Source: a virus
Direction: 5' to 3' (one strand)
DNA: 64,000 nt
IMG/VR virus record: IMGVR_UViG_3300010354_000075
Location: 1 to 64,000 of that record
In this document: in pieces, positions 28,469 through 61,248 of the stretch
Numbering within the stretch: the first letter of the stretch is position 1
Layout of the letters: every line of letters begins with the position of its first letter
Translations under genes and position numbers: made by a program
Notes under the pieces: model-generated
Databases searched by the model: none
What the model saw: the letters and a program-made list of their open reading frames with translations, nothing else
Told to the model about the DNA's origin: nothing

Positions 28469-28495
28469 TATTTACCTAAAAGTATAAAGTGCGTA
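28469..28495 (-). promoter_or_regulatory. bipartite phage promoter TACGCAC-N14-TAAATA (203-residue structural gene)
   Basis: Minus strand: TACGCAC at 28495-28489, 14 nt spacer, TAAATA at 28474-28469, then 20 nt to the ATG. The same two boxes with exactly the same spacing occur upstream of gp6 and gp48. TAAATA matches the core of the T4 late promoter (TATAAATA); TACGCAC sits where a -35 element would be. See the separate finding. Confidence 0.7.
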
Positions 28496-46700: not shown

Positions 46701-47231
46701 TTCATCTACTAGATCAACTTTGTATGTACTTTCAATTTCAAGTTGCTGTCCAAATACTTTTATAACGTCGGGACCGTATGCTAACCAATAATAATTTTGG
46801 AAATTAACGAACTTGTCCCAATTAATATGCGGATCCCAACTATAAAATTCTTGTTTGTTTAATCTTTCATGATTGGCTACATCACCGCCCAATACACTTA
46901 TTTGATTAATATAGTCGATATAATCTTTAAAAAATGTTACATTCTCAAACTTGTCCTGAATAACAGCAGCAGGTTCTAATTGATAATTTTTGCGAGATTC
47001 CTCTTTAGACTCTATATAAATGTCGTCGGACTTAGCAGATTTGGCATTTTGTTGGCCAATGTATCCATTAAGTTTTTTTACTTTACCAGGTTGCGTAAGT
47101 TGGTCTAAAGTAGCCTGTAAGAACTTTTTATTACTATCTGTTCTATAGGTTCTAGGAAGTAAATTAGCAGTTCTTCTTGGTTCGTTACCGCCAGTAGGTA
47201 ACCCAAATTCGTCTTGATCGTTATTGGCCAT
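31707..47231 (-). CDS. giant multidomain tail/baseplate structural protein (5174 residues)
   Basis: A single 15.5-kb frame encoding 5174 residues, almost a quarter of the window. The N-terminus (RTYRTDSNKKFLQATLDQL, then SWDPHINWDKFVNFQNYYWL) is a block I know from marine T4-like phages directly downstream of gp6, so it may replace T4 gp7 and neighbouring wedge proteins. Visible modules: (a) carbohydrate-binding-like motifs of W/Y--GD-V-----Y type near residues 1524, 1780, 2277, 2427 and 2640 (for example WTDYNLGDIVKHKEYFYSAK); (b) seven FG-GAP-like repeats near 2187, 2244, 2366, 2610, 2725, 2785 and 2862 (FGAEVAFSADGKW, GYDIAMSGDGTKI, FGESVSISDSGSH), fitting one seven-bladed beta-propeller; (c) a YHYH domain, about 3700-3990 (LPYHSHGTQ, GFALDGYPIYGPNGY); (d) repeated small beta modules, ~4080-5000, of 'DGSTTSFSL ... 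VNGV' type. There is no signal peptide. It is likely a long wedge or fibre protein that binds surface sugars. Confidence 0.75.
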   Translation of the reverse strand: MANNDQDEFGLPTGGNEPRRTANLLPRTYRTDSNKKFLQATLDQLTQPGKVKKLNGYIGQQNAKSAKSDDIYIESKEESRKNYQLEPAAVIQDKFENVTFFKDYIDYINQISVLGGDVANHERLNKQEFYSWDPHINWDKFVNFQNYYWLAYGPDVIKVFGQQLEIESTYKVDLVDEEDNFAYVFSPNGLTRNPTIRLFRGQTYNFSINSPGNPFSFKLSRVGGDTDRYKKGVSKFAVEQGVITFKVRKDAPDLLYFVNEKDPTAGGVIQILDIEENTFLDVDKDILGKKDYTLTSGVKLSNGMKLNFEGNITPAEYKDGNWYVDGVGTSITLIPESALEIISTYTQESELLFDDTGFDNDPFSVASAYPRDNDYIVMARGSKDRNPWSRYNRWFHEDVIKVSAELNGKIPDVDQSLRAVRPIIEYEADIKLYNFGHQAKKDIDLIDTFTTDVFSIIEGSTGYNVDGVSLTPNMRVLFTADPDILVKGKIFKVNFIEIIVPQRQIEFVADATVNPNSDVITFASEHFLNTGVQVTYLNNGNNDIGGLSNRQQYYVFVVSATQIKLFFDSALTRQVDILNRGANTHKFEVFLGKRKQINLVEEPDTTPLLYETVLVRGGNTSKGSMYWYDGSNWKLAQSKSRVNQPIFFDVFDHDGNSYGDVTAYDGSTFNGNQIFSYKQGNGSKDKILGFPLSYKNINNVGDIVFNFNLLQESFNYKNGNSINSKRTDIGFLKKITGLDTWNYVNGWKKSEIKNVQPIVRIFKESGLVNNFPVDVYDNTDDLSDLEVRVYVNGKRLNREKFTVERGVVRFIVVLDNDVTLSDIVTLKCYAKQSKNNNGFYEIPINLQNNPLNKNLESFTLGEVVDHVSSVVDNISDFVGTYPGNGNLRDLGNLTEFGSRIVQHSCPLNLSLYHLAKLDINVVKSITEAQEDYATFKRTFLTVAENLGVDMDARRHVDLILETMFKDKPSTHSYYFSDMFGYSGYTRLEYLVEDGRFQRIFSISRTFNLDRLSNQAVYVYRNGIQLIEGVDYVFGNDDVFFNIIGELNDDDIIEVYEYDSTDGSFCPPTPTKLGLYPKFKPRKFLDDTYLEPKEVIQGHDGSITLCYGDYRDDLLLELELRIYNNIKQKYDPAIFDIWNYIPGYNRKTAYSKEEFDRVLSPSFFQWTSLIKEDFTKQTYWDRLEPFTFNYRGNYYPDGSDSQAFWRGIYNWIFDTDSPHITPWQCLGFSIEPTWWQEVYGPAPYTSDNFLLWDDLSQGIIREPGKPPKVHDKFIRPILRNTSPTDELGNLRNPLESNFVTGPLPSTSEGFYSFGDQGPVETAWRRSSYYPFALIKTILLLHPAQTLSVCFDRNRQIRSATGQLVYSPTSLRIRLSDIVLPSTVNDTTRVFTSGLVNYIIDFATSDVTFKIDEYKQDLQHLTNKISHKLGGFTSKNKFKILLDSKNPTSSGGVFVPEDNFNIFLNVSSPIKKLVYSGVVISKFSDGYELRGYNFDEPFFTYYPFRQNDRVIRIGGISESFTSWDTNKTYVAGKVVLYSNRYYRTNVTHQSGDNFDETLFTKLPGLPMIGGAEAILRKSFVKNQELFLSYGTRLKTIQEVVDFLQGYGAYLEEQGFVFDQYNPTIKAVTNWETSVNEFLFWTTQNWGEGSALSLSPAAVKLIIRNDLAVVDDIRNPFYGYKVFRVDGQLLGAEFVSTFRSGNEFSIIPENTAYGIYGGTFYLVQKEHVLLLDNTTLFNDVIYDQEPGYRQERVKVIGYKTTDWNGGFDIPGFIFDKAFINDFTPWTDYNLGDIVKHKEYFYSAKQFVVGGENFKSDEWVLLREKPVPTLIPNWDYRSEQFTDFYDLDTDNFDSEQQRLAQHLIGYQNRQYLENIIKDDVSQYKFYQGMIIEKGTQNVLSKLFDVLSADNQESLTFNEEWAVRVGEYGASAVFEEIEFKLDESKFKLNPQPIQLVNTVENINTDLIYRIALGDVYLKPLGYKNSPWPTLGTKRFLRSPGYVRYEDVKVNVDTLNEIINLDIDDFQEGDYVWTAFENRDWNVYRFTKNTFSIEDVEYSDGIITLQCDIFPNIEKGDIIGIIHSEKIKGFHIVSSVQSRKITIEKVIKDWKPPFVDSSEILTYKFISSRVDNIDNANEILPPYIKNKELLWADVGSKNLSYNGAIPYTVYSNEKIYNRFILENKEPLLEVKFGTKVAINKNGNILAVSTANNEVYIYEKGPVSDTYDVWLQQQLITPNLKLASTDNLGFGAEVAFSADGKWMAIAAPTASNIRSNWKGDFYNSNSYAFGDIVQVRNTHFSARRSAVSNDLSSIDIFSQDWAPAYLVTTEEYKPNNSNLNQGYVNLYARTPGGSYNLFQSFVSPNPTAGELFGSKMVFAQNGNEYVLSITSPGYNDNQGRVYMFRYAELEEDSSQSNWHMDYRRSYTGIFSPSRQYYPGDVVFYNYELYECITLQDPNTFETNASGWQILEETNILGYFPQEVVSNVADVTPIVITNITPNFPATTGTVKFRRATITYATRPSAPFTAGQYIEIRNCNPNVYNGDWLVYSSSTTQTVIVCPFPRFLPSPPYLGGLEDPLYKYVGGGIVTLAIVSPVKDQNVESVNPGDLFGYDIAMSGDGTKIVISAPYADQNTYNNYRGKFRSTEKYDVNDVVYYGGGVDPAGYYSYKKTFDSSVAGTFNTNDWRLLTTAQFNNTGKIFTYEYNGNAYVLVDSLGAQNLNLNLEQRFGESVSISDSGSHLAVSSTLYTDTYNAQGSVKIFEAYSGSWSPYQTLVSIDPGNNHKFGHYVEFMNDADTLVVHSVNSDIKNETTFDNSTTQFDNSTLRIVDLQFLTGRVDVFDKYNSNYVFGESLTTSSINEASDGYGKSIAVGSNNILVSAPREENQDFPDAGIVYAYRKPSGKFSWSVVHYERARPNVYQIKKAFLYNRRENLLVKYLDVIDPIQGKIPGIADQEIKFKTYYDPATYSVGNELVTVDDGMAWTNTYTGMLWWDLTKAKFIENQGGEIVYRSTNWNTLYETGSIDIYEWVESKLLPSERDKIADTEKGLIQGLSGKSKYGDSVYSIKKKYDTVSKTFVNTYYYWVKNTTIVPNKEGRMLAAEAISRLIADPRSFGYPCLVLLSPDSFGLVNVDSYLKDKDVVLSVQYWTVENKENNSHSQWKIISEHPNTILPYEIEQKWIDSLQGVDKNGRTVPDLKLPIKQRFGIENRPRQSMFINRIEALKQFIERVNSILKNNLIVDEFDLTPLTKLEEPPSAVSGQWDIAIDTYPEFRFVGTSQLEQIKLTPVIVDGKLTEVQIVQRGKGYINSPTSIITGKGRNAEIKINLNATGGVDTVDIVNPGFGYKADTFINVRPYSVLVLSDSESYDKWAIYHYNRANRDWTKQKAQSYNVTTYWSYIDWYDTGYDQFTKFNHVVANTNELASLESFIGQIIKVSNVGTGGWTLFLKINDIITTDFTQNFKVIGRQNGTIKFLDNLYNFKGKEQGFDALLYDAGQYDSVPSAELSIILDTIKNKILIDNLRADYLKLFFSSMRYALSEQPFLDWIMKTSFVKATHNAGELKQKVNYNSDNLQDFESYINEVKPFRTKVREYVSGYTRLDNAALSVTDFDLPPIINEDFKVHPLTVVLNENYALGSSAFQLLEYPWKHWYDNAAYSIQTIELFDGGKGYIDPPTVKIVDDYGLVTSTNELKSNFDGPNSVWLLQEGTLKITATGLPYHSHGTQEANNVAVDQSYNQVIPLRGGSYAAGPHAEIPEGIIGYWLNGVAIFNPSAGTATPEGYDSQTDYNYNAAYSTSEILELNFGHDRAGGLVTEDGQYSYRDSSFLDAWLSGIGNDLADVDKIDALEIPYLRNGLEHADGHSKILGFALDGYPIYGPNGYNVATDPNSGVDRMTSSYGLKNSSYRTGFLQDLTTYPMGMFIQDYEYSGDGTLDKHNGRYCITPDYPNGTYAYFVTTNSAGTPVYPYVIGPTYFGDSAPQDRNDASNGKGTPPKFYNLYNSNAVQATARAYITNGKVSRIVLRTEGSGYLTAPRVVFEGGLDSTVENYHAKAYAVLKNNVVRSNKTLIKFDRNSRNYFVTELTQVETFVGTGSRKQFALRFSPVLTIGNTLVKINDNEILRDNYSLSIKKSTTKGFTSYYGVLTLETAPAIGDQVQITYDKNFEHLNAADRINFYYNPQTGQLGKDLAQLMTGIDYGGVIVSGLGLSLGGGWDSQPWFSEGWDGYDVGFTDYIVSVSDSTYVFDLPYVPTAGEQINVYVNGVRIDDEYYDSYDGITVQPNGRTSAPEGRVMQTWTGDGLSKTIELPNLTSIVPLDINAGDKIIFRKSTSDGSINPDPKNFDTQLQGGNLSYTTATGFAPDDILVEGGGRFITPETSHAPEEIVPGHITDTLNIKVFRLPVSGSSRIISKNYICDGVLDQFDISQFPNGENGVFVNLDNQILKLGTDYTLDWQSRKIILTVAPANKKILNVTCFGVASDNLLDSNFFVADGSTSDYITNAPWPQLYTDDVFEQSIDRLGSVVLVNNQPVIYELFRTDESYETTGFVGIRFPDPPEQDAIINYIMTADANTSLSLINSTPIAADGSTTSFSLGTVPTDNSKPYENYILVIANGNLLRPAESIYWRMSDNEYVYEIADFKTLPFSLDPSTIKVYIDGELLSSLDYVINNTNLTIEIRDFVYVDQGILTLTRFEDTDYTISGNNIIFDTAPSGNVDVITFFNHSVQNIVRTREYFSISSTLVPGSASYYQYHSIKGGSLRLFRLAQSDDYIWVAKNRELLVHSVDYYLDDDHRTIKFKDAFEDSDVIDVILFGDKNVTNSFGFMQFKDMLNRTHYKRISKNKSTRLVKDLKQRDLTIEVENGSMLTEPNRALNLPGIVEINGERIEYLTKNGNVLGQLRRATLGTGSPAIHRVTSVVLDIGPTETIPYNDEFIVESSIGDGSTKNIRLSYAPTKVDVDWYTDTIPSTYGRSDEIEVFVGGYRLKKNPYSLFDETNQYPDSPEGDNQYEAEFSVDGTEQVRLTNEVAENVKITVIKKVGRVWEDSAPPAKVFRNIQAGSGGAVFDVIKNGPTYTLTLRRGGINYSVGDVLIILGSRLGGTTPENDIVITVTDISDDSSASILGYTYTGIGASSGFTTVSLSDSDNPVANFLKNTEAVWPQYFADKYQYVLLTDTGESITVDGEEPLELD

Positions 47232-50200
47232 TAGTCTTCAATTCCTGCGCTAGTTATAATTTGTTGTCCTGTTGCTGTGTTACTTGCTACGATAGCTCCG
47301 CTAGCTTTTAACTTACTAGCAGTAACCGCAGTAATAACTTCGATATCATTTACTGTTGCTCCATTTACAAAGATTTGATCTTTTTCGCATTTAATTTCAT
47401 ATAAAGCGCCAAACGTCAATCTTGTTTCTTTAGGAACAATAACAAAATTAACCACATATGGACTTAATCTGTTCATCACATAAGTAGCTAACTCTGTAAA
47501 ATAAAATGTTTCTCCAAACTCCCAATTTTCAATACTGAAAAATTCGTTTATAGCCGATAATGCGCTAGATTTTACATCATTATCGCTTATTACTAATTCT
47601 GAATTTTTAACAATTTTAAATGTAGCTTGTACATCTAATGTAGCTTTTTCTCCAAATAACACTTTATACTTTACTGGATGATAAACTATTTCATCACTTA
47701 TAGATTTTATTTTGTTTAGTTCTGTACTCATTAAACTAAACAAAGTATCTTGACTAGGAGGATAAGGTTCGCTATCTAAAGCATTGTTCAACCATTGTCT
47801 AAAATTTTGATCGTATTGTTTTGTTAACACATAAATGTCAATTAAATTTGTAATACCAGGATCAATTCTAGACTCATAATCAGCATTGTGTATATACTGA
47901 AATTTAATATTAGGTCTACCAACAAACACTTTATAATCTATAGAAGGCTCAAAACTAGCACTTGCTAAGGTAAATTTGTAAACTGTGTCAGTTTCTTCTG
48001 AATAAACATATTGTCCATCAGCCAACACACCTAAATTAGAAAGAATACCTAAAGAGCTGACTATTATAACTTTTTGATCTGTATTATCAACATATCTGTA
48101 ATCTTCTTGCCCTGCTGAAATCTCATACTTTTCTAAAATTATTTTTTTAGTAGTTGGGGAAACAGTAGGAGCAACTATTTCTTCAAATAAAATAGGATTA
48201 TCAACTACACCGTCATCGTCTAAATCACTAAAGGTTACCTGTATTTTTTTAGTATCTACATAACCATCTAACCCTTTAAATTCTTCTGTAATTTCCCAAT
48301 CTCTACTTATGGTAAAAGGAACTAAACTATCTGGCTGTGTATTGATGTTTAAAATTCTAATTTTATCTTTTACTATTGTATTATTTCTAGTATCGTAGAT
48401 TTTATCGCTAGCATCAAAATAAAAACGAATCTGTTTCTCGCTTTCGAATACATAACGTAATAATCTAGATTTTACTGTATAAAATTCAGTATCGGTTGTA
48501 AAAAGTAACAACCAGCTAGAGTCTAATTGCTGATTACTGTTATCGCCTTGTTTACCTAGGCTAAATCTATCGTTTATGTTTAGATTAACTTCAAAAACAA
48601 TTTTCCAAGTTTTAGATTGAATATCATATCTTAGTCCGAACGGCTTGTTCGCAAAAATCAAATCAATCATTGTGGACACTGTATTGTTTTCTAATGTAGT
48701 ACGCCAAGCTGGAATAATCTGATTTACTATAGCATTTTGTGGAATAATATCATTAAATGTCACAGGACCGGATCCGTCAGCAAAGATCCCATCGCCACCT
48801 GCTGTACCGTCACCCGAAACGTTAATGACTTTACACCATAAACTTGTAACAGCATTATCCACATTTGCTGTACCACGTACCAACTTATTATCATTACTTT
48901 TATCGAAGTAATAACCTGTCGGAGGAACAAACTGTATTAAAGCGCCTGGTGACAAGTATCTTAATAGTGTACTTGTATATGTTCCTAATTTATATGGTAC
49001 TGGCTCGGTGTCATAGGATATACTAGGATTTCTAATATCACTAATATATCCTGTACATTGATTTGTATCAACTGTTCTACTGTACCATGAAACAGACAAC
49101 GAATCAGTTACTACAGTAAAAAAATTACCGTAATAAAAATCTCTTAATGTAGAAGATTTTAAAGTGTCTATAACTTGATTATAAATGATTGCTTCTATAT
49201 CTGTTCTATTCTGATAGCTAAATTTAAAACTTTCAGTAAATTCCTCTTTATATAAGATTCCATCATCAGCGAATAAATTTGTTTTACTAAATTTTCCTGT
49301 TGGGTCTACTAAATCAAAATATCTGCTTATACCGCTAGCACTTCTATTCACTGCCTTAATTTTTATAACTTGCTGATTGACACTTAACGGACTGATATTA
49401 TAATCCTCTGCTGTAATCATTCTATTCTGAGTATAATAAGTAGCAGGAGCCTTTGACTTAATACTGTCATTACTCTCTGATTCGGAACTATTATCTACAC
49501 TTGATTGTAAACTTACGTTGATTGTCAGAGTTTCAAATTGTCCATTATTACTAATATAAGGAACAGCAATACTAATATTTCTGATATCTTTGGGATTTAT
49601 AGTGTAGCTTATACCATTACTTGTTCTATAATATACTCTAAATGTTCCTCTAGGAATATTACCAAATGTACCATCACTGAATAACAGACTGGCTCTATCA
49701 CCTGCTCGTGTCACTACACTATAAATGTTCCTTACTGATTTTTTAAGACTATTATAGATTATATTATTACCTTCAAGACTAGGAACTTTTTGCCAATATT
49801 CATTTTCTAACCCATTCTGATCTAAACGATACAACCAAATATCAGTATCATTAATGTTTACCGCATCAATATCGATGCTTTCACTTGTACTTGGTTGTAA
49901 AATATCAAATGTTCCTTGAGCTAAAATTCCCTGTCTAAAATGTAGGAAAAATCCGGTATTAATACTGGCATTGCCTTTGCCGTCATTTCTAAAAATAAAT
50001 GCTAATCTATTTCCAATAGCAGGTGGTTCTTCGTAAATGTCTTGAGAATTTTTAAAAACAGTTGAAACTATTTCAAAGGGCATGTTTCTGCCGTCTACTG
50101 ACTTGGTAAAACTGTAAACTGGAGCATCAGTGTTAGCACTCTGAAATCTATATTGTTCTGTTGGAATACCGTATATTACTGCTTTGTCGTCTGGATTACC

Positions 50201-50710
50201 AAATTGACGGCTAGAAGGTAACGCAGCATTAATGACCTTTATAAATTGATCGTACCAATTAGCATTAGATGGATCGTTCCATAAAATAATTTGTCCGGAA
50301 AGATTACGACCATTGGAATCTATAACTGTTTGAGTAGTGCTTACACTACTAAACTTTAATAATCCACTACCTGCTATGTTTCTTTTAGGATTATAGCTTA
50401 GTAATCTAGCTAATCTAAGAACACTTTCTCTACGTTCTGCTAACTCTAGAAAGTTGTCCCTAGCATTTAAATCAGTTCTAAAACTGATACTTTGACCCAA
50501 AAATGCTATTAAATCAATTAATGCCAAATACTCAGAACTTTCAATATAATCGTTGAAATCTTCTGGATAATTTTCCCTAATGTAATTAATCATTACACGT
50601 CGCAGATTTTCAAAATCATAACTTTGAAAATCGGCATTACGGAAAGTTTGGTAAATTCTTTTCCAGTCTTCGGCTATTAATAATCTATTTTGTCTATCGG
50701 TTGCTGACAT
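47231..50710 (-). CDS. gp6: baseplate wedge protein gp6
   Basis: A 1159-residue homologue of T4 gp6, the ring-forming wedge protein of the inner baseplate (660 residues in T4). The N-terminal region (RRVMINYIRENYPEDFNDYI, YLALIDLIAFLGQSISFRTD, NARDNFLELAERRESVLRLA) is diagnostic of gp6/baseplate_J-like proteins in T4-like phages. The middle (~200-800) is extended with beta-rich insertions. The C-terminal ~250 residues (LNKIKSISDEIVYHPVKYKV) carry the second conserved block. It sits between gp25 and the giant structural protein, as expected for a wedge operon. A bipartite promoter lies 21 nt before the ATG, so it begins a transcript. Confidence 0.9.
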   Translation of the reverse strand: MSATDRQNRLLIAEDWKRIYQTFRNADFQSYDFENLRRVMINYIRENYPEDFNDYIESSEYLALIDLIAFLGQSISFRTDLNARDNFLELAERRESVLRLARLLSYNPKRNIAGSGLLKFSSVSTTQTVIDSNGRNLSGQIILWNDPSNANWYDQFIKVINAALPSSRQFGNPDDKAVIYGIPTEQYRFQSANTDAPVYSFTKSVDGRNMPFEIVSTVFKNSQDIYEEPPAIGNRLAFIFRNDGKGNASINTGFFLHFRQGILAQGTFDILQPSTSESIDIDAVNINDTDIWLYRLDQNGLENEYWQKVPSLEGNNIIYNSLKKSVRNIYSVVTRAGDRASLLFSDGTFGNIPRGTFRVYYRTSNGISYTINPKDIRNISIAVPYISNNGQFETLTINVSLQSSVDNSSESESNDSIKSKAPATYYTQNRMITAEDYNISPLSVNQQVIKIKAVNRSASGISRYFDLVDPTGKFSKTNLFADDGILYKEEFTESFKFSYQNRTDIEAIIYNQVIDTLKSSTLRDFYYGNFFTVVTDSLSVSWYSRTVDTNQCTGYISDIRNPSISYDTEPVPYKLGTYTSTLLRYLSPGALIQFVPPTGYYFDKSNDNKLVRGTANVDNAVTSLWCKVINVSGDGTAGGDGIFADGSGPVTFNDIIPQNAIVNQIIPAWRTTLENNTVSTMIDLIFANKPFGLRYDIQSKTWKIVFEVNLNINDRFSLGKQGDNSNQQLDSSWLLLFTTDTEFYTVKSRLLRYVFESEKQIRFYFDASDKIYDTRNNTIVKDKIRILNINTQPDSLVPFTISRDWEITEEFKGLDGYVDTKKIQVTFSDLDDDGVVDNPILFEEIVAPTVSPTTKKIILEKYEISAGQEDYRYVDNTDQKVIIVSSLGILSNLGVLADGQYVYSEETDTVYKFTLASASFEPSIDYKVFVGRPNIKFQYIHNADYESRIDPGITNLIDIYVLTKQYDQNFRQWLNNALDSEPYPPSQDTLFSLMSTELNKIKSISDEIVYHPVKYKVLFGEKATLDVQATFKIVKNSELVISDNDVKSSALSAINEFFSIENWEFGETFYFTELATYVMNRLSPYVVNFVIVPKETRLTFGALYEIKCEKDQIFVNGATVNDIEVITAVTASKLKASGAIVASNTATGQQIITSAGIED

Positions 50711-50731: not shown

Positions 50732-50758
50732 TATTTAGCGTATTTTGAAATGTGCGTA
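50732..50758 (-). promoter_or_regulatory. bipartite phage promoter TACGCAC-N14-TAAATA (gp6)
   Basis: Minus strand: TACGCAC at 50758-50752, a 14-nt spacer, TAAATA at 50737-50732, then 21 nt to the gp6 ATG at 50710. The gene-free interval is only 50 nt and this element fills most of it. It is identical in both boxes and spacing to those at 28469-28495 and 56772-56798. Confidence 0.72.
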
Positions 50759-51212: not shown

Positions 51213-52895
51213 TTAGTCACTTTGTAGCTTTCTGAACGGATCTACCGCAGCACTGTATGTTTTCCAGCCGCTAGCAGGTGTTAACATGGTTACTGAAAAT
51301 TCTGATTGATCTTTGAGCTGTTCCTCGTCCGTATCTTCATATCTTCCTTCGATATCTCTGTCGGTTAATTCTGGTTTCACTTTAAGGGGATCAAGATTCT
51401 CGTGATGCGGATACGGTTCATGAGTAATTATTCTTCGCATGATAGAAGGTTCTAATGGTAGTTCATCTTGATCAGGCAGTGTATGTAATTTTAGTCTTTG
51501 TGGTAACTCTGCTTCTTTAGCTTTTGCTGCTGTTGAAGCAGCAGGTCCATTCATATGAATCAGTGCCGCAGTTTCAATATGATTGCCTCCGCTTTTAATT
51601 TCTGTAGTTTTTCCTGCTGTAAACCAATTATGCCCTGTGGTATTAAAATCTGTATCTTTTAAAACTGTAACTTTATGATTTTCATCAAACAGTTTTTCTA
51701 CATCCTTTTTAACATGTTGTTTATAAGTCAACTCATAAGTTTTATCCACTTCTTGTTTAACGTGAATTTTTTGTTTACCATCTACAATTAAAATTTGATC
51801 CATCATTACATGTGTATGTAATTCACTACCAACTTTAATATTCATGTTTCTTACACACTCAAAATTTATATCTCTGTCGGCAAAGAAATTAAGATCTTGT
51901 TTGGTATGTATGCTAATACTATCCTCAGCAAAAACATCAATTTTTCCATCACTAGTTAATTCTATCCACGCAGTACCTTTACTATTTCCTATATAAATTA
52001 AATCTTCAGAATTATGTAATAAAATTTGATGCCCTGTTCTTGTACGTAATCTTATACATTCATTATGGGGTATAGTATTGTCACCATCAGTTTCACCGTT
52101 CAATAAATTACTGTATTCTGGAGGACCGTCTGAAGCAGGAGTTTTTCTAATAAATTTGTCATTGCCGTCGTCCATAACAAATGTAGACCCGCCTAATCTA
52201 CTTACAAAGGCGCCGTCAATTAAGTGTTCAGCTTTACCTATCTTGCCACGCTTTCCATTTTTATCAACTGGACCTGGTGTACTAATACCAAACACAGCAC
52301 TTGGGATTTCTCTTCTTGCTGAGCTAGTTGTGATACCCCTAGTATCATCTAAAATTAATCCTTGCTTAACTAAAAATTCTGTTATAGGATGTTGAGGTTT
52401 AGGTCTTTTTGTAGGATCTCCTGTATTTTCGTTGGCTACTTTATTATACTCGGCAACTGGTACTCTTTCGCTATCTTCTGTTTTGGTATCACCTACTACA
52501 AATTCCGTGGCGGCTAAGCCTGGGACCATGAAATTCATACCCTCGTCTTGTACACAACCTATCCAATAACCTTTACGGGGATCGCCGCCAATAAAAATTA
52601 CTACTACTAAGGTTCCTACATCTGGAGGAACAAACCACATACCATAACTTTTTTGTGTATTTTGAAAATCGTCTGTGTCAGTTACATGTTCCGCGCCAGT
52701 AACACCATAGAAAGGATTAAGATATTTTACAGTAGTTAATTGCCCATCTGAATTTACATCCCCTGTGACCTCCCTTAGAATCTGAACTTCTAATCCGCCC
52801 ATATAGGTTGGATCGAGATGGCTTACAACTTTAGCCAAAAAAGGACCAGGGTCTACTGGTGTACTACCTGCTTGTGGTCTGCTTTCAATAGCCAT
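51213..52895 (-). CDS. gp5: baseplate hub/spike protein gp5, without a visible lysozyme domain
   Basis: A 560-residue homologue of T4 gp5 (575 residues), the central spike under the tail tube. The N-terminal OB-fold block is present: PFLAKVVSHLDPTYMGGLEV, then PPDVGTLVVVIFIGGDPRKG and YWIGCVQDE. The C-terminal part is a gp5/VgrG-type beta-helix (RLRTRTGHQILLHNSEDLIY, SISIHTKQDLNFFADRDINF). In T4 a lysozyme domain lies between these at ~171-345. Here that stretch (RPKPQHPITEFLVKQGLIL and beyond) shows no E-D-T lysozyme motif, so this is a spike without the enzyme, as in many marine relatives. It overlaps the hub gene upstream by one base. Confidence 0.85.
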   Translation of the reverse strand: MAIESRPQAGSTPVDPGPFLAKVVSHLDPTYMGGLEVQILREVTGDVNSDGQLTTVKYLNPFYGVTGAEHVTDTDDFQNTQKSYGMWFVPPDVGTLVVVIFIGGDPRKGYWIGCVQDEGMNFMVPGLAATEFVVGDTKTEDSERVPVAEYNKVANENTGDPTKRPKPQHPITEFLVKQGLILDDTRGITTSSARREIPSAVFGISTPGPVDKNGKRGKIGKAEHLIDGAFVSRLGGSTFVMDDGNDKFIRKTPASDGPPEYSNLLNGETDGDNTIPHNECIRLRTRTGHQILLHNSEDLIYIGNSKGTAWIELTSDGKIDVFAEDSISIHTKQDLNFFADRDINFECVRNMNIKVGSELHTHVMMDQILIVDGKQKIHVKQEVDKTYELTYKQHVKKDVEKLFDENHKVTVLKDTDFNTTGHNWFTAGKTTEIKSGGNHIETAALIHMNGPAASTAAKAKEAELPQRLKLHTLPDQDELPLEPSIMRRIITHEPYPHHENLDPLKVKPELTDRDIEGRYEDTDEEQLKDQSEFSVTMLTPASGWKTYSAAVDPFRKLQSD

Positions 52896-55414
52896 TACGC
52901 TGTAAATCCTCCAGAATTAATTACGCCTGGTAATCCAGTATTAGGCGGAGAAGTATTAACATTATTGTTTTGAACACTTCCACCAGTAATAGCACTAATT
53001 ATGCTGCTATTAGTTTTCTGTACAAAATCTGTACCTTCATTTTTTTGTCCTATTAAGGAGCCAGCTGGTTTTTCTTTAAGTTTTACATCTTGTCCAGGCA
53101 ATCTTACAAGATGTAAAGTTTGAGTAAATTTATTTCTAACTATCGAACTATCAACACTAAGCACTCTAAATAAACCGCTAAATTGTGCTACTGGTTCTGT
53201 GTCTCTAAAATCCCATGAACCTTTTTCTAAATCAATATCTATTGGTGTTCTAAAATTAACTTCTACAACTACTTCACCATTTTGATAGTTAATAGAACCA
53301 TCGCTAGTAATATTATCGTATCCATTTACTTCTTTAGCACTATAATTTCCCATGCCACTATCAGCAATATAATACGGATCGCCTAATATCTCTAAATCTA
53401 AATTAATCATGTCAGCTTGAGCTGTGATAACATCATGAAACTGTCTAGCTACTACTGTGGCCTTATCGTCAAACGCAGAAGCTCCGCCTTTGTTAGCTGT
53501 TTTAGATTTTATAACATCATTCCTAACTTGTGTAGGATTTTCAGGTTGAGCATTGCTGCCGCCTGCTAACCCTTTTTGAAAGGTAGCAGCAGCATTTTGT
53601 AAACCACCAGACGGAGTAGATCCAACAGTTTGGTCTCTGGCTTCTGTATCAGTGGATTGTCCTGTTTGATCTTTTAAACGATCGCCTTCGGTGCTAGTAC
53701 CAGAAAACAAAGCTGTGTAAAATCCTGCTTTGAAATCAATATTAAAATTTAAAATTTCTGTGTTTTGTCCTGTATAGATATAGTTGTATTCTTTTACTGC
53801 CTGTTTTTTTAATTGATCATAACCTTTGGCTTTAGAATCTGGCGGCATAAATCTTGAACTATTAACTTGATAAGGAACTACTCTGAACACTATACACTTA
53901 GGTTTAGTTCCTGTTTTTCCATCTTCTTGCGGAATATTATAAGCCTGTGTTTCTATCCTAAACCAAACTATATTACCTGTAGGTGTTAATTGCGCTTCGT
54001 TTAAAGCATTTCTGCCGTAGTCACTGTTTAAAATAACATTAGTAATCACATCGGTAATAAGAGCACCTTGCTGAAAATGGAACTTAGAATTATTCAAATC
54101 TATAGTAACAGATCCTATTTTTACTATTCCCTTCTCTTTATCATAACTATCAGCATCTTTAGCAAATGGTGTTTCTCCCTTAATTTTTTCGCTAAAACCT
54201 AACAATGATTGTCCTATAATGTTTACAGCAGATTTGTCAATTCCTTGAACTTTAGTAGAATTAGCACCTTGACTAACACCTAATTTTCCGTAAAAAGCAG
54301 CAGCACTTCCAACATTAGGAGTAGCAGTCGCTGTCTTTTCCGAAAGTTCATTACTAGTCACAGTTTTGTTTGATCCAGGATCTGACGCTGTATCCTTAGG
54401 AAATAAAATCAAAATTTCATCTGGTACTTCAACTTTTCCTGCTTTTTTTGCTTCTTGTAAACGCTTGTTTAATACTGCTTGTAAACTATTTGCTCCAGTC
54501 TGTAATAAATTTTGAATAGTATAAGGGCCACCTTTATCACATTCTATACCTACATCGCTCTTAATTTCGTTAAAAGTTTTTGACATACCTTGTTCATTCC
54601 AAGGATATGCTTCTACATTATATTCACACCCTTTGCCTGTAACAGTCATGCCTAGTTCTCTTATTTTAAGAGGTATTTGTCTTACTACCACAGGATTTTC
54701 TTTATCTATATCTGTCCAACCTCTCCATTCTATGGTTAACAACAATGGTACTTGTGTATAATTTTCATGTCCGGCTTCTAAAGCACCTACTTGTAAAGAT
54801 TGAAAAAATAAACCCATGCTATAAGGTTCTGTTACAGTGAAAGTTATATTAGAAGCATTAGTGACACCTGTAGCTTCATTTAATCCCATAATAGTTGTTA
54901 ACTTAAAATTATCAAGGAAAAAATTATAAGATCCAAATGCTGTCTTAATTAATCCTTCAGGAGAAATATTATTTGCTGATTTTAAAATAATAGGACCAAG
55001 CTGTCCTTTTTTGTATGTTAAATCTGGAAAATTAATTGCTTCGTCACTTAACACACTTAAAGTAAAAAGCGCATTAACTGATACGTATTGACTTAACTGA
55101 TTTGGTAGAGGAGGTTTAAAATTAGGAGGAGGAGCAACTTTAGTCTGCCCTTGATCCACTTGTGCTGCTACAGCAATATCTTGTTGACTTTGTGCTACAC
55201 TATTAAAAGTCGCTGAACTAAAATCTAATCCCGGAATACTAAAAGAAGAAAGATCTGGTAACAGTCCTCCGCCTACAACTGCTTTTTTTAATTCATCTAA
55301 CGCAGGGCCTACAGCAGAACCTCCGTTTTTTTGTACTATACCTGTAACTGTTTTTGATATTTTTTCTGAAGCAGATGTAGCTCCAGCTTTAAATTCTTTA
55401 GCAAAATCTACCAT
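52895..55414 (-). CDS. large baseplate hub protein, gp27-like
   Basis: An 839-residue protein between gp53 and gp5, the expected place for the hub that joins the spike to the tail tube (T4 gp27, 391 residues). Features that fit a hub fold are LLTIEWRGWTDID, VRQIPLKIRELGMTVTG, ILNFNIDFKAGFYTALFSG, and DMINLDLEILGDPYYIADS; 'L-ILGDP-W/Y' is a common hub signature. The first 100 residues are alanine/glycine/proline-rich and flexible. Long internal linkers (Thr/Gln/Gly) account for the extra length. It overlaps gp5 by one base. Assignment to gp27 is by position and these weak motifs. Confidence 0.6.
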   Translation of the reverse strand: MVDFAKEFKAGATSASEKISKTVTGIVQKNGGSAVGPALDELKKAVVGGGLLPDLSSFSIPGLDFSSATFNSVAQSQQDIAVAAQVDQGQTKVAPPPNFKPPLPNQLSQYVSVNALFTLSVLSDEAINFPDLTYKKGQLGPIILKSANNISPEGLIKTAFGSYNFFLDNFKLTTIMGLNEATGVTNASNITFTVTEPYSMGLFFQSLQVGALEAGHENYTQVPLLLTIEWRGWTDIDKENPVVVRQIPLKIRELGMTVTGKGCEYNVEAYPWNEQGMSKTFNEIKSDVGIECDKGGPYTIQNLLQTGANSLQAVLNKRLQEAKKAGKVEVPDEILILFPKDTASDPGSNKTVTSNELSEKTATATPNVGSAAAFYGKLGVSQGANSTKVQGIDKSAVNIIGQSLLGFSEKIKGETPFAKDADSYDKEKGIVKIGSVTIDLNNSKFHFQQGALITDVITNVILNSDYGRNALNEAQLTPTGNIVWFRIETQAYNIPQEDGKTGTKPKCIVFRVVPYQVNSSRFMPPDSKAKGYDQLKKQAVKEYNYIYTGQNTEILNFNIDFKAGFYTALFSGTSTEGDRLKDQTGQSTDTEARDQTVGSTPSGGLQNAAATFQKGLAGGSNAQPENPTQVRNDVIKSKTANKGGASAFDDKATVVARQFHDVITAQADMINLDLEILGDPYYIADSGMGNYSAKEVNGYDNITSDGSINYQNGEVVVEVNFRTPIDIDLEKGSWDFRDTEPVAQFSGLFRVLSVDSSIVRNKFTQTLHLVRLPGQDVKLKEKPAGSLIGQKNEGTDFVQKTNSSIISAITGGSVQNNNVNTSPPNTGLPGVINSGGFTA

Positions 55415-55415
55415 A

Positions 55416-55715
55416 TTATAATCCTAGTATCTGTTTTAGACTGTTGCCTTTAGGTATGTATATTTTTGTTCCCGCAACGAAGTCATAGATAGGATCTTGT
55501 ATAGTATCTAAATTTCTTTGTGTAAAGACCCACCATAGCTTAGGATCTCCATACAGGTCAAATGCTAACAAATCGGGTCTGTATGTATATTGAGGTTCGA
55601 TAGTATAAAGAAAATCGTCAGCTTCAGAACTAACTGGTCTAATTCTTAATACAGTTAGATAATTATTTTCAATTGGTGTGTCTTTCCAAGGACTCGAAGG
55701 TTTATAGGCCGCCAT
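55416..55715 (-). CDS. gp53: baseplate wedge protein gp53
   Basis: A 99-residue protein matching the LysM-like core of T4 gp53 (196 residues), which clamps neighbouring wedges together. Diagnostic stretch: YRPDLLAFDLYGDPKLWWV, then RNLDTIQDPIYDFVAGTKIY and IPKGNSLKQ. The T4 C-terminal half is missing, as is usual in marine relatives. Its ATG overlaps the upstream gp48 stop by one base and its stop is two bases before the hub gene, so all are co-translated. Confidence 0.88.
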   Translation of the reverse strand: MAAYKPSSPWKDTPIENNYLTVLRIRPVSSEADDFLYTIEPQYTYRPDLLAFDLYGDPKLWWVFTQRNLDTIQDPIYDFVAGTKIYIPKGNSLKQILGL

Positions 55716-56752
55716 TATTGATATCCTATCTTATTATCTACATAAGCACCTTGAACAAACGCTTGTAAACTAAACTGTCGTATTGCCTGTCTACTATAAA
55801 TTGGTTGTAATGTAATTGTAAAACTACTTTTAACAGGCACATGACTGTCTCCCTTCATAGCCTGAGTTTGAGAAGATTGTGCTGGAGATCCTGCTTTATT
55901 TTTACTATCTAATCCGCTAATAAATGCTCCGGCATTTTGTAATCCGCCCGCTTGTAAAGCTGCTCCTGCTAGACTTAAAAATCCGCCTGACTGTGCCACT
56001 GGAGCTGCTGCTGTTGGGCCTGCTGGACGTCCTACATCTTTTCTCATACTTGTCGAAATATAATTTGTATCGGCACCTAGATCGACTGTAAAACTATTAA
56101 CTACTACAGGAATATTTTTAAAAACAAAATCTCCGTATCCATTTAAATATACTATCACAGGAGGATTGCCTTGTTCTGCTCCGGTATCAAATCCTGTAAA
56201 CATTTTGGTAACGGATCTAAAATAATGTACAGCAGCCAACCAGTATTGTGCTTGAACAGCATCTTCTACAAAAAAAGGAGCTGTGATTTGAATTCTGTCA
56301 ACTTTACTATTTTGATAAGTAATAAATTGAAAATTTTGATGAACGATACTTTGCTCATCGTACGCGGCACTACTTGATATACTGATTGCGGGAGTGTAAG
56401 GAAAAATCATTCCTCCGGCATTGATTAGTGGTTGTAAAACATAACTGTTTTTAAACACTCCGACATTGGGCAAACTTAATCGTACACGCCAGTCCTTGTC
56501 TACTTCAGTGCCGCCCCAAGTGGCTCCGGTGTTACCTAATGGATTAGATGTATTACCGCCAACTGGTAGATTTAAACTTCTTAAACTTGATAGCAATTTA
56601 CCAGGATCAGACAGGTTATTCAGTGCCCCAGATAGTTTACCTGCTGTACCTAACGCGGAACCTAAATTGTTTGGATTAGATCCTATTCCTCCAGTAAGAT
56701 TTTTAACCACTGTAGATGCGGTAGATGAAAATGTATCAAATAAATTAGGCAT
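55715..56752 (-). CDS. gp48: baseplate-tail tube junction protein gp48/gp54 family
   Basis: A 345-residue protein of the gp48/gp54 type, which caps the baseplate hub and starts tail-tube growth (T4 gp48, 364 residues; gp54, 320). The central region DWRVRLSLPNVGVFKNSYVL, then GGMIFPYTPAISISSSAAYD and HYFRSVTKMFTGFDTG, followed by GYGDFVFKNIPVVVNSFTVD, is the tube-like beta-barrel fold. The first ~70 residues are Gly/Asn/Ser-rich and flexible. It is the first gene of the long minus-strand structural operon; its bipartite promoter lies 19 nt upstream. I favour gp48 from its place next to gp53; gp54 is the alternative. Confidence 0.78.
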   Translation of the reverse strand: MPNLFDTFSSTASTVVKNLTGGIGSNPNNLGSALGTAGKLSGALNNLSDPGKLLSSLRSLNLPVGGNTSNPLGNTGATWGGTEVDKDWRVRLSLPNVGVFKNSYVLQPLINAGGMIFPYTPAISISSSAAYDEQSIVHQNFQFITYQNSKVDRIQITAPFFVEDAVQAQYWLAAVHYFRSVTKMFTGFDTGAEQGNPPVIVYLNGYGDFVFKNIPVVVNSFTVDLGADTNYISTSMRKDVGRPAGPTAAAPVAQSGGFLSLAGAALQAGGLQNAGAFISGLDSKNKAGSPAQSSQTQAMKGDSHVPVKSSFTITLQPIYSRQAIRQFSLQAFVQGAYVDNKIGYQ

Positions 56753-56771: not shown

Positions 56772-56798
56772 TATTTAGTTGACAAAATAAAGTGCGTA
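56772..56798 (-). promoter_or_regulatory. bipartite phage promoter TACGCAC-N14-TAAATA (gp48 operon)
   Basis: Minus strand: TACGCAC at 56798-56792, 14 nt, TAAATA at 56777-56772, then 19 nt to the gp48 ATG. It is the third copy with identical spacing. On the opposite strand the same bases are covered by the sigma-70-like promoter of gp55: its -35 hexamer falls inside this 14-nt spacer and the TACGCAC box falls inside its own 17-nt spacer. The two promoters therefore cannot be occupied at once. Confidence 0.74.
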
Positions 56799-56807
56799 GT
56801 TTACAAT
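56779..56807 (+). promoter_or_regulatory. sigma-70-type promoter of gp55 operon
   Basis: TTGACA at 56779-56784, a 17-nt spacer and TACAAT at 56802-56807: a consensus -35 box, ideal spacing and a one-mismatch -10 box. The start of transcription would fall about 56814, just before the GAGGTG ribosome-binding site (56816-56821) of gp55. It would be read by unmodified host RNA polymerase, which suits a gene that must be expressed before late transcription. Confidence 0.72.
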
Positions 56808-56824: not shown

Positions 56825-57646
56825 ATGAAAGTTAATTACTTAAACAACAAAGACTTACTAGAAGAAATACACAAATCAAAAAACACTTATTGCTCATTTA
56901 CCAAACCAGAATATCATCGCTATGATGTTATTTTGCCTAATATTGACAAAATTAATATAAGAACTATAGCCGATGCTAAACGTGCTCATGCCAAACGACT
57001 CAGTGTACAAGCTTATGAAGCACGTAAGCAAGCTGGAGAAAAAGTCAAATTAGCTGAATGCGAAGTGGACTATAAAAAGATTCCTAAATCGGATTTAATT
57101 TTCCGAATAATGACTTTTGATCATATACCATTAAACACTACACGAAAAAAGAATCCAAAAACTACAGCAGATGGACGCGACAAAGTTAACTTTCCTCCAT
57201 TCCAACATTATAAATTTAATGAAGATGATGTATTAGTTTGTGTAGGCAAAAGTCATTGGCGAGGGTCTGTAGACAAAGGAAAATTTAGTAAAGATCACGG
57301 TCAAATTACTAACACTCTAGCTAAAATGTATATTAAACTTTGTGAAAGATATGCTACTAGAGGTAATGTTAGAGGTTATACCTATAACGACGAAATGCGT
57401 GGACAGGCTATTTTACAATTAACACAAATTGGATTACAATTCGATGAATCAAAATCAGACAATCCTTTTGCGTACTTTACTGCTGCTGTAACTAATAGTT
57501 TTGTACGCATTATCAATATTGAAAAACGCAATCAAGTAATAAGAGACGACTTGCTAGAAATGAATGGCATGAATCCAAGTTATAGTAGAACTGGGCAAGG
57601 AGAATATGTGGCGGCACTTAGACGAAACGAAGGGTATGACGAATGA
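56825..57646 (+). CDS. gp55: late-transcription sigma factor gp55
   Basis: A 273-residue homologue of T4 gp55 (185 residues), the phage sigma factor that directs host RNA polymerase to late promoters with the sliding clamp and co-activator. The conserved sigma-2-like part is at ~184-240: YTYNDEMRGQAILQLTQIGL, then DNPFAYFTAAVTNSFVRIIN and EKRNQVIRDDLLE. The N-terminal ~150 residues, including KRAHAKRLSVQAYEARKQAG, are longer than in T4 and could hold additional DNA or polymerase contacts. I choose the ATG at 56825, preceded by GAGGTG, over an in-frame GTG at 56792. It is transcribed from a sigma-70-type promoter and overlaps the next gene by 4 nt. Confidence 0.9.
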   Translation: MKVNYLNNKDLLEEIHKSKNTYCSFTKPEYHRYDVILPNIDKINIRTIADAKRAHAKRLSVQAYEARKQAGEKVKLAECEVDYKKIPKSDLIFRIMTFDHIPLNTTRKKNPKTTADGRDKVNFPPFQHYKFNEDDVLVCVGKSHWRGSVDKGKFSKDHGQITNTLAKMYIKLCERYATRGNVRGYTYNDEMRGQAILQLTQIGLQFDESKSDNPFAYFTAAVTNSFVRIINIEKRNQVIRDDLLEMNGMNPSYSRTGQGEYVAALRRNEGYDE

Positions 57647-57801
57647 TAACATATGTAACAGTGAAGGTAGGCGAAGGACACTATTTGAAACTTGTATTCA
57701 CTAGAATGACTGAAGATGACAACTGGATTTGTCAAATGGAGAATACCCTAATGTCAGAAGTACAGCAAATTATAGGAAAGGACATTTATGGGCCTTTTTA
57801 A
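57643..57801 (+). CDS. small unknown protein between gp55 and gp47
   Basis: A 52-residue frame (MITYVTVKVGEGHYLKLVF at the start, DIYGPF at the end). The ATG is in an ATGA overlap with the gp55 stop and the stop overlaps the gp47 start by 14 nt. This tiling is strong support for a translated gene. The sequence alternates hydrophobic and polar residues in the first half (likely two beta strands) and ends in a helix. No family is recognised. Confidence 0.62.
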   Translation: MITYVTVKVGEGHYLKLVFTRMTEDDNWICQMENTLMSEVQQIIGKDIYGPF

Positions 57802-58798
57802 AAAAGTAGCCTGCTTAACTGACATTCACTTCGGTTTAAAATCTAATAGTCAAACACACAATCAAGACTGTGAAGACTTTGTTGACTGGTATATTGCTAA
57901 GGCAAAGGAGGAAGGATGTGATACTGGAATTTTTCTCGGTGATTGGCATCATAATCGTAATAGTCTTAATATTACTACTATGGATTTCTCTCTCAGAGCT
58001 TTGGAGAAACTTGGTAGTAGCTTTGATCAGTTTTTCTTTTTTCCTGGCAATCATGATCTATATTATAAAGATAAACGAGATATACACTCAGTGGAGTTTG
58101 GAAAATATATTCCAGGAGTCACAGTCGTACATCATCCCACGACCATAGACGACGTAACATTATGTCCTTGGTTAATTGGAGATGAATGGAAAGCTATTTC
58201 AAAACAAAAAGGTCAATATATATTTGGGCATTTTGAACTGCCTAGCTTTTATATGAATGCTATGGTTCAAATGCCTGATCATGGAGAGATACAACTTAAT
58301 CATTTTGCCAATTACGAGCTAGGATTCAGCGGTCACTTTCACAAAAGACAACAACGCGGTAATATGGTATACATTGGTAATTGTTTCCCGCACAACTATT
58401 CAGACAATTGGGATAACGATCGAGGAATGATGATTTTAGAATGGGGTAAAAAACCAGAATATCACACTTGGCCCGGACAACCTACTTACAGAACTACTAA
58501 ACTTAGCGAGTTGATTGATCGCGCTAATGATATTATACTACCTAAAACACATCTTCGTGTGAGCTTAGATATAGATATTAGCTACGAAGAAGCAAATTTT
58601 ATTAAAGAAAAATTTATGGGCGATTATCCTATTAGAGAACTAACACTTGTTCCAGAAAAAAAGGAAGTAGAGATAATCAGCAATATTGAAATACAAGAAT
58701 TTGAAAGTGTAGACCAAATTGTAACGAATCAGCTGGTCAATATAGATAGCGATACCTACGATAAAAAAGTTCTACTGTCAATTTATAACAATTTATGA
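57788..58798 (+). CDS. gp47: recombination endonuclease subunit gp47 (Mre11/SbcD-like)
   Basis: A 336-residue homologue of T4 gp47 (339 residues), the nuclease half of the gp46/47 complex. The complex resects DNA ends for recombination-dependent replication and helps degrade host DNA. The five metallophosphoesterase motifs are visible: DIHFG (D12, H14), GDWHHNRN (~52), GNHDLYY (~88), GHFELPS (~148) and GHFHKRQ (~180). They hold two metal ions, as in Mre11. It overlaps gp46 by 4 nt (ATGA), the standard arrangement for the pair in T4-like phages. Confidence 0.92.
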   Translation: MGLFKKVACLTDIHFGLKSNSQTHNQDCEDFVDWYIAKAKEEGCDTGIFLGDWHHNRNSLNITTMDFSLRALEKLGSSFDQFFFFPGNHDLYYKDKRDIHSVEFGKYIPGVTVVHHPTTIDDVTLCPWLIGDEWKAISKQKGQYIFGHFELPSFYMNAMVQMPDHGEIQLNHFANYELGFSGHFHKRQQRGNMVYIGNCFPHNYSDNWDNDRGMMILEWGKKPEYHTWPGQPTYRTTKLSELIDRANDIILPKTHLRVSLDIDISYEEANFIKEKFMGDYPIRELTLVPEKKEVEIISNIEIQEFESVDQIVTNQLVNIDSDTYDKKVLLSIYNNL

Positions 58799-60573
58799 TA
58801 AGATTAAAAACACTAACAGTTAAAAATTTTATGAGTGTGGGTAACCAGACTCAAGCTGTAGATTTTACTAGAGAACATTTAACACTTGTACTAGGCGAAA
58901 ACTTAGATATGGGTGGCGACGACAATGGCAGTCGCAACGGTACTGGTAAAACTACTATTGTAAATGCCCTTAGTTATGGATTATTTGGACAAGCTCTGAC
59001 AAATATTAAAAAAGATAATCTAATCAACAAAATTAATAATAAAAATATGTTGGTTACATTAGCGTTTGAAAAAGATGGGCAGGATTATCGTATCGAACGA
59101 GGTCGTAAACCCAACATATTAAAGTTCTATGTTAATGATATAGAGCAGGAAAACAACGAAACCGATGATAGTCAAGGCGATGTTAGAGAAACACAAAAGG
59201 ATCTAGCAGATATACTTGGTATGAGTCACGATATGTTCAAACACATAGTGGCTCTTAACACGTATACTGAGCCATTTCTCAGTATGCGAGCGAATGAGCA
59301 ACGTGAGATTATTGAACAACTGCTAGGTATAACTTTATTAAGTGAAAAAGCCGAGACTCTTAAAGAACTGATACGCATATCTAAGGATCAGATCCAACAA
59401 GAATCTGCTAATATCGAAGCAGCAAAGAAGTCTAACGAGAAAATACAACAAAGTATCGATGGTTTAGAAATTAAAAAAAGTGCTTGGTATAATCAACAAG
59501 AACAAGATTGTCTCAAACTAGCCGAAAAGATCATAGAACTACAAAGTGTTGATATAGAAAAAGAACTAGAGCAACATGCTAAACTAAAAACCTATGACGA
59601 ACTAAGCGCAAAGATTAAAGCTCTACACAAACAAAAGGCTACACTTGAAACCAGTGTAATGCAGGCCGACAAAACAGTAAACAAATATAAAAAAGAATTA
59701 GAAAAGCTAGCAGATAACAAATGTCCTGCTTGTGAACAAGGCTTACATACAGATAAACATGAAGAAATGATTACTGTGGCTAAGAAAAATCTAGATGATT
59801 CCTATATATTTTTACAAGGAGTCAGCGATAGCTATGCTACTGTGATACAAGAACTAGAAGACATCGGTGATATTAATGGCAGACCTACTACTTTCTACGA
59901 TAGTCTGGAAGAAGCATTAAGACATCAAAACAATTTAGCTAGTCTAGAAGACGCCTTAGGTAAACGACAACAAGAAATAGATCCTTACACTGAGCAAATT
60001 GAAGAACTTAAAAATACAGCACTTCAAGAAATTAGTTGGGACACTGTAAATGAATTATCTGCTGTTAAGGATCATCAGGAATTCTTATTAAAACTATTAA
60101 CAAATAAAGATAGCTTTATTAGAAAGAAAATTATTGATCAAAATTTAAGCTATTTAAATAGCAGACTAACTTACTATCTCGATAAAATGGGCTTGCCACA
60201 TCAAGTTACATTCTTAAACGACTTAAATGTAGAAATTACACAGCTGGGTCAAGACTTAGATTTTGATAATTTAAGTCGAGGCGAGCGTAATCGATTAATA
60301 CTTGGGTTAAGTTGGAGTTTTAGAGATGTATGGGAAAGCTTGTACCAAAATATCAATCTATTATTTGTAGATGAGCTTATAGATAACGGGTTAGATGCTA
60401 GCGGTGTGGAGAATGCTCTTAGTGTTTTAAAGAAAATGGCACGAGAACGTAGTAAAAATATCTATTTGATTAGCCATAAAGATGAACTTATCGGTCGTGT
60501 AAACAACGTCCTTAAGGTAATTAAGGAAAATGGGTTCACTAGTTATAGTACAGACTTAGATATCACTGATTAA
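58795..60573 (+). CDS. gp46: recombination endonuclease subunit gp46 (Rad50/SbcC-like ATPase)
   Basis: A 592-residue homologue of T4 gp46 (560 residues), the ATPase half of the resection complex. The Walker A motif is GSRNGTGKTT at 45-54. A long coiled coil (~190-440) is interrupted by the zinc-hook KCPACEQG at ~309, where two molecules dimerise. The ABC signature LSRGERNRL is near 492 and Walker B LLFVDELIDNGLD near 523. The order is typical Rad50. Its stop overlaps the next ATG (TAATG). Confidence 0.92.
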   Translation: MIRLKTLTVKNFMSVGNQTQAVDFTREHLTLVLGENLDMGGDDNGSRNGTGKTTIVNALSYGLFGQALTNIKKDNLINKINNKNMLVTLAFEKDGQDYRIERGRKPNILKFYVNDIEQENNETDDSQGDVRETQKDLADILGMSHDMFKHIVALNTYTEPFLSMRANEQREIIEQLLGITLLSEKAETLKELIRISKDQIQQESANIEAAKKSNEKIQQSIDGLEIKKSAWYNQQEQDCLKLAEKIIELQSVDIEKELEQHAKLKTYDELSAKIKALHKQKATLETSVMQADKTVNKYKKELEKLADNKCPACEQGLHTDKHEEMITVAKKNLDDSYIFLQGVSDSYATVIQELEDIGDINGRPTTFYDSLEEALRHQNNLASLEDALGKRQQEIDPYTEQIEELKNTALQEISWDTVNELSAVKDHQEFLLKLLTNKDSFIRKKIIDQNLSYLNSRLTYYLDKMGLPHQVTFLNDLNVEITQLGQDLDFDNLSRGERNRLILGLSWSFRDVWESLYQNINLLFVDELIDNGLDASGVENALSVLKKMARERSKNIYLISHKDELIGRVNNVLKVIKENGFTSYSTDLDITD

Positions 60574-60863
60574 TGGACACGCACGAACAACTAGTACACT
60601 TGTTTAGACAATATTTTGAAGCTAATCAAGAATGGGAAAGAAAACAAACACACACATCTGGTATAAAATGTAGAAACCTATTGGCAGAAATGCGAATATT
60701 GGCACGTAAACGTAGGGCAGAAATAATGAAAGTAAGGCACGAAAAACCTAGTCAATCAAGTCCAGGCTACTTTGAATCAAATCGACGTAAGGCAGAATTA
60801 AAAAAGACTAAACAAGTTGATGTCGTGGTACCACCAGAATCAACTGATAACAGAACTTCCTGA
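60573..60863 (+). CDS. small basic protein after gp46
   Basis: A 96-residue basic, helical protein (LFRQYFEANQEWERKQTHTS, then EMRILARKRRAEIMKVRHEK). Long amphipathic helices rich in Lys and Arg suggest nucleic-acid or protein binding. The tail (VVVPPESTDNRTS) overlaps the GIY-YIG gene by 44 nt. It is found in a replication/recombination block, so a DNA-related role is plausible. No named family is recognised. Confidence 0.6.
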   Translation: MDTHEQLVHLFRQYFEANQEWERKQTHTSGIKCRNLLAEMRILARKRRAEIMKVRHEKPSQSSPGYFESNRRKAELKKTKQVDVVVPPESTDNRTS

Positions 60864-61248
60864 AGATTGTATTGGATTTGTATATTGTATAACCAATATT
60901 ACGACCGGACGAATGTATATAGGCAAAAAACTGGCAAAATTTAGTAAAACCACATATAAAGTAGTAAAATTAAAAAACGGCACAAAGAAAAAGAAACGAA
61001 TTAAGTCAAAAATAGACTCAGACTGGCAAACATACTACGGCTCCAACGACGAACTCAACAGAGATGTAACACAATTAGGCACAGACAAATTTCACAGAGA
61101 GATACTTTATTACTGCAAAAGTAAGGCAGAGTGTAGTTACATCGAGGCAAAAGAACAATTCACAAGACGAGTACTGGAATCTAATGAATACTACAATGGT
61201 CAGATCAGTGTTCGTGTCCATGGCTCACACATCAAAGGCAAATTATGA
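60820..61248 (+). CDS. GIY-YIG nuclease-like protein
   Basis: A ~142-residue protein with the GIY-YIG fold at the front: IGFVYCITNITTGRMYIGKK supplies the GIY and YIG strands (as FVY and YIG). It is followed by 'WQTYYGSNDELNRDV' and a conserved glutamate in SYIEAKEQF, the usual catalytic Glu position. Free-standing GIY-YIG proteins (Seg type) are common in T4-like phages and can act as homing or repair nucleases. The basic stretch KNGTKKKKRIKSK suits DNA binding. The ATG at 60820 is preferred to a TTG at 60817. Confidence 0.8.
   Translation: MSWYHQNQLITELPEDCIGFVYCITNITTGRMYIGKKLAKFSKTTYKVVKLKNGTKKKKRIKSKIDSDWQTYYGSNDELNRDVTQLGTDKFHREILYYCKSKAECSYIEAKEQFTRRVLESNEYYNGQISVRVHGSHIKGKL

Follow-up and report, generated by a model that had tools for sequence, protein, structure and literature searches.

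At A2b/A3 in phage phi29, early and late promoters overlap in opposite directions, and a switch favors one of the two. That switch works through the regulators p4 and p6 with one polymerase holoenzyme. Late promoters of phage T4 have a TATAAATA box with no sequence conservation at −35, and the function of a −35 element falls to the sliding clamp (PMC2988020, PMC7892883). For CBB, a jumbo T4-like phage with a gp55-like sigma factor, the available part of the published account reports an ATAAATA motif before structural genes and a TGAAACG-type promoter ahead of gp55, and that part describes neither an upstream late box nor an overlap (PMC5259590). The locus considered here has a predicted early promoter and a predicted late promoter that face in opposite directions and are interlocked, an arrangement that spans a large group of environmental T4-like phages. 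With a probability of about 60%, these are two real promoters that act as a mutually exclusive switch between gp55 and a baseplate operon, with feedback by gp55. At the level of sequence, comparison with relatives establishes the anatomy of the site, its conservation, its specificity and the status of both elements as genuine promoters, the last of these as a preliminary description of this DNA had proposed.

The window, the whole stretch of 64,000 nucleotides that was analyzed, is part of a 67,305-bp IMG/VR virus record; a nucleotide search of phage records gave no match. The minus strand carries a T4-like baseplate region and the plus strand a replication/recombination block. The gene for a 273-aa late sigma factor of the gp55 family (56825..57646, plus strand; C-terminal half similar to T4 gp55) and the gene for a virion structural protein (55715..56752, minus strand; phrog_12050) diverge from a 72-bp gap. 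The structural gene is the first of the baseplate operon, which continues on the minus strand over 51213..55715 with, from PHROG and Pfam searches, a gp53-like gene (55416-55715), a gene for an 839-aa structural protein and a gene for a gp5-like hub/lysozyme (51213-52895). The name “gp48” used earlier for this first gene is positional only: it adjoins gp53, its product matches a PHROG family of virion structural proteins, and no Pfam or PDB profile matches it. Its homologue in phage PA5oct was detected by mass spectrometry, according to the record annotation. On the plus strand, the rest of the early operon (57643..60573) consists of overlapping reading frames, with a 52-aa ORF 5′ of a gp47-like gene (57788-58798), followed by a gp46-like gene (58795-60573). 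A SegE-type GIY-YIG endonuclease gene (60817-61248) lies directly 3′ of the gp46/gp47 block, and a 5174-aa ORF occupies 31707-47231 of the minus strand, inside the tail region.

The two promoters share a 36-bp core (56772..56807, both strands) of the type TATTTA-G/T-TTGAC-N9-(box)-NN-TTATAAT. On the plus strand, a sigma70-type promoter (56779..56807) reads toward gp55, with TTGACA at 56779-56784, a 17-bp spacer and TACAAT at 56802-56807. On the minus strand, a late promoter (56772..56798) reads toward the baseplate operon, with TACGCAC at 56798-56792, a 14-bp spacer and TAAATA at 56777-56772. These boxes, spacings and directions are to the base those of the preliminary description, and its claim that each spacer encloses a box of the opposing promoter, TTGACA in the late one and TACGCAC in the early one, holds at exact coordinates. 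The late −10 box is just outside the early −35 box, and the late upstream box starts within the early spacer and reaches into the early −10 box. Predicted start sites are at ~56814 for the early promoter and ~56765 for the late promoter, so that the predicted 5′ leader of gp55 is ~11 nt long and that of the structural gene ~13 nt; both contain a purine-rich ribosome-binding stretch. Among relatives, the length of the core is invariant and both flanks vary.

The late element recurs alone. The 67-kb record contains three exact matches to its pattern, all on the minus strand and none on the plus strand, and each lies 19-21 nt before a minus-strand start codon (28448, 50710 and 56752); the reversed pattern, used as a control, does not occur in the record. 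The second site (50732..50758, minus strand) precedes a gp6-like baseplate wedge gene (47231-50710) and has no opposing early promoter, and the third (28469..28495, minus strand) precedes a gene at 27837-28448 and has no opposing TTGAC. A 34-column matrix was built from 30 regions upstream of gp6-like gene homologues in other phages; the training loci were retrieved only through similarity of their gp55 proteins, and none came from this record. Across both strands of the 67-kb record (~134,500 positions), this matrix ranks the site in the gp55 gap first, with 29.4 bits; the two remaining exact sites come next (24.1 and 23.5 bits), and the score then falls to 10.0. In 50 simulated 67-kb sequences, the mean maximum was 11.6 bits and the highest 21.0. 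A chance late motif is thus ruled out by the combination of a cross-gene matrix and simulations. A scan of all of IMG/VR for AMTACGCA-N14-ATAAATA found 45 matches before a gp6-like gene, 26 before the structural gene and 19 without a recognized gene. TTGAC was present at the interlock position in none of 108 gp6-like late sites, a set that is partly pattern-selected, which indicates that the late element is also found where there is no early promoter. Judged from these sequences, the late motif defines a promoter class of its own, and a TAAATA-type box precedes late genes as expected of a late −10 element. An operator or chance pattern on the minus strand, rather than a promoter, is highly improbable: the same element with the same spacing stands alone before other late genes (at 28448, at 50710 and in the 108 gp6-like upstream regions), at a promoter-like distance from start codons. 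Moreover, TATTTA lies outside the early promoter, and so its invariance is best explained by a minus-strand promoter. Late-type TAAATA boxes also occur as a second divergent pair facing each other on both strands (ATGCGCATATAAATA / TCCGATAAATATA; L102:16113-16172, equal to 64113-64172 of record G000), just beyond the window. The minus-strand gene of that pair encodes a baseplate hub protein (phrog_150), and similar paired boxes are found in G001, G002, G003, G008, G010 and G011.

The early element resembles a sigma70 promoter closely, with TTGACA and a TATAAT-type box 17 bp apart before an early gene. It matches the consensus at 11 of 12 positions and is the best sigma70 match in the 50-64 kb interval, and no second strong promoter directed at gp55 lies in the 72-bp gap. 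We infer its early timing solely from the identities of gp55, gp47 and gp46. TGCGTA and TATTTA were considered as ordinary parts of early promoters and rejected, because ~42 other TTGAC-N15-19-TATAAT promoters in non-coding DNA of 11 related contigs have unrelated spacers and no TATTTA in register. In those contigs, TATTTA and TGCRTA-like boxes stand in the interlock register at gp55 promoters only. Likewise, among 93 sigma70-like promoters of the 11 contigs, the exact offset is confined to gp55 promoters (in 11 of 11 contigs), and looser overlaps occur at a few non-gp55 promoters. In IMG/VR, the composite pattern has at least 100 distinct contexts; among the matches listed, 92 lie before a gp55 homologue and 8 at contig ends, and none lies elsewhere.

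How well is the interlock conserved? The core is kept in 78 of 78 relatives, a count that covers only loci retrieved by their gp55 protein (71-88% identity). Across 70 distinct sequences, TATTTA and TTGA are present at 100% and each base of TATAAT at 96-100%, and flanking positions carry less than 1 bit each. The early spacer is 17 bp in 89 of 89 interlocked loci, and the early −10 box lies 7 to 32 nt from the gp55 start, depending on the locus, with a core of constant length. The expectation that relatives keep the overlap stands for close relatives but fails for distant ones. At gp55 identities of at least 75%, the exact offset is found in 58 of 59 loci (the remaining one is 1 bp shorter); at 65-75% it is found in 31 of 47, with five other overlaps; below 65% it is found in none. 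Many distant relatives have the same divergent genes with the early −10 box 45-104 bp from the late −10 box. For example, at this locus of a distant relative (L369) the late promoter is good (ATTAACTACGCACATAATAATTTCAATAAATA) and the early promoter stands apart from it, further downstream, so that the late element is present there with no interlock. On these comparisons, the interlock is a lineage trait, stable within its clade, and not a general property of gp55. It falls approximately into one group on the gp55 tree (OVL_30), a FastTree-only tree with several long branches on which statements about clades are coarse.

Other lineages have other arrangements, with overlap offsets of 13, 23, 29 and 33-34. 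In the sister clade, an extended −10 (TGTGCTATTAT) is 23 bp from TATTTA. Members of this clade (L385, L394, L433, L442 and L522) have a different interlock, TATTTATT..TTGACAAAATGTGCTATTAT, upstream of gp55, apparently with an extended −10. In phages 121Q, Hallingskeid and XbC2, the −10 is 33-34 bp from the late box; in Agrobacterium phage Atu_ph07, TATTTAGTTGACA is kept without a clear −10; and in PA5oct the two promoters abut. The median score of the late matrix is −0.6 bits at loci with separated promoters versus 23.9 at interlocked loci. The matrix does not transfer to distant clades, so the specificity for the upstream box differs between lineages.

Could the overlap be a passive product of genome compactness? 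Two promoters, each of them required, may by chance have become interlocked once in a 70-90 bp gap, with cross-talk of no regulatory importance. Once they are interlocked, any insertion or deletion breaks one of the spacers, so the geometry would be frozen without any switch, and fixed geometry by itself is not proof of selection for one. The single group on the gp55 tree, the separate promoters of distant relatives and the tight packing of all genes here are what passive overlap would give. Against this, none of the other promoters in the 11 contigs has the exact interlock, and different overlaps recur in other lineages, though compactness may account for these as well. Passive compactness could alone explain the overlap and is a serious rival, credible if short of probable.

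What would a switch between gp55 and the baseplate operon do? Early in infection, host sigma70-polymerase would read the near-consensus plus-strand promoter and produce gp55 together with gp47 and gp46. gp55 loaded on host polymerase would then recognize the minus-strand promoter. With a single polymerase at the site, the output would be the late sigma factor or baseplate proteins but not both at once. Accumulating gp55 would lead to occlusion of the promoter of its own gene, providing negative feedback; until then, sigma70-polymerase would keep the baseplate operon silent. On textbook footprints, in which RNA polymerase extends from about −55 to +20, and with starts at 56814 and 56765, the predicted footprints of the two promoters share ~62 bp. 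Given the known size of RNA polymerase, this shared footprint makes mutual exclusion of the two holoenzymes likely and, together with the shared bases, supports the earlier proposal that two bound polymerases could not coexist. Since gp55 has no other strong promoter in the gap and gp47 and gp46 follow in overlapping frames, occlusion would lower expression of the whole early block.

That the gp55-polymerase wins the competition and lowers gp55 in vivo is something we infer; it is plausible that this enzyme shuts off the gene for its own sigma factor. The gp55-polymerase may not win, because the early promoter is near consensus. The competition would also be inessential in the family as a whole, since the promoters of distant relatives are far apart, and an anti-sigma protein could instead shut off early transcription. 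In another reading, the main effect runs in reverse: as long as the host sigma factor is active, sigma70-polymerase represses the baseplate operon, and feedback by gp55 is negligible. The 11 of 12 consensus positions of the early promoter, near-perfect across relatives, favor this reading, but the late promoter is likewise the best fit to its own consensus in the genome, and we consider it unlikely that repression by sigma70-polymerase is the main effect. If the mutually exclusive switch with gp55 feedback is real, it would be a very compact autoregulatory circuit in which a sigma factor limits itself by occupying a promoter on the opposite strand, without an extra repressor and in a widespread environmental phage group.

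The protein itself differs from the T4 case. gp55 matches phrog_12791 (E 1.9e-77) and, over residues 145-256, phrog_234; residues 144-235 match PDB 7d7c_F by profile (E 1.9e-9), which is also the top fold match. It is thus homologous to T4 gp55 in the sigma region 2-like part, whereas its domain build is not that of T4 gp55, which has no large N-terminal domain. Residues 1-150 form an extra N-terminal domain in the predicted structure (mean pLDDT 92.6), and this domain of ~150 aa has no fold match in PDB. The DNA that encodes it (56825-57290) specifies a product that is strongly conserved in the clade. According to a survey of jumbo phages, this group has gp33 orthologues that contain a helix-turn-helix (PMC7824862), so the reader of the upstream box could be either the extra gp55 domain or a protein like gp33. 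Pfam and PHROG searches of ten related records, with weak controls and unproven sensitivity, found no match to the T4 gp45 clamp family. The conserved late upstream box and the extra gp55 domain are unexpected features, and bipartite late promoters together with an extended gp55 suggest a mode of late-promoter recognition unlike that of textbook T4. In a more detailed proposal, the gp55-gp47-gp46 operon is silenced by the gp55-polymerase itself, as this enzyme fires the interlocked baseplate promoter. That promoter would be bipartite, and its upstream box would be contacted by a domain without such a role in T4, either the N-terminal domain of gp55 or one in a gp33-like partner. This conserved, self-limiting switch is tentative and, taken as a whole, somewhat unlikely.

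No description of the interlocked arrangement was found in the open-access literature, a scope that most subscription papers fall outside. The locus is like T4 in having a phage sigma factor of the gp55 family, a TAAATA −10 box that precedes the start by about one helical turn, and late structural genes behind it. It differs in its upstream box, ATWAAMTACGCAC, which is conserved ~15 bp upstream of TAAATA. In the logo of the 108 partly pattern-selected gp6-like sites, this box extends from −28 to −13 relative to TAAATA, and its most conserved position reaches 1.8 bits; among the 30 unbiased late sites, TACGCA is exact in 8 and TACNCA in 17. These late promoters, unlike those of T4, therefore show sequence conservation at −35. 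In T4, gene 55 is internal to an early operon and follows 55.1-55.6, whereas here gp55 is beside a divergent late gene. Phage 121Q also has gp55 with a divergent neighbor, but there TATTTA is 33 bp from an extended −10 TATAAT. The kind of arrangement is already known, and the variant here is an interlocked early/late pair at gp55. Compared with phi29, two holoenzymes would compete directly at this site, one of them carrying the product of the early promoter.
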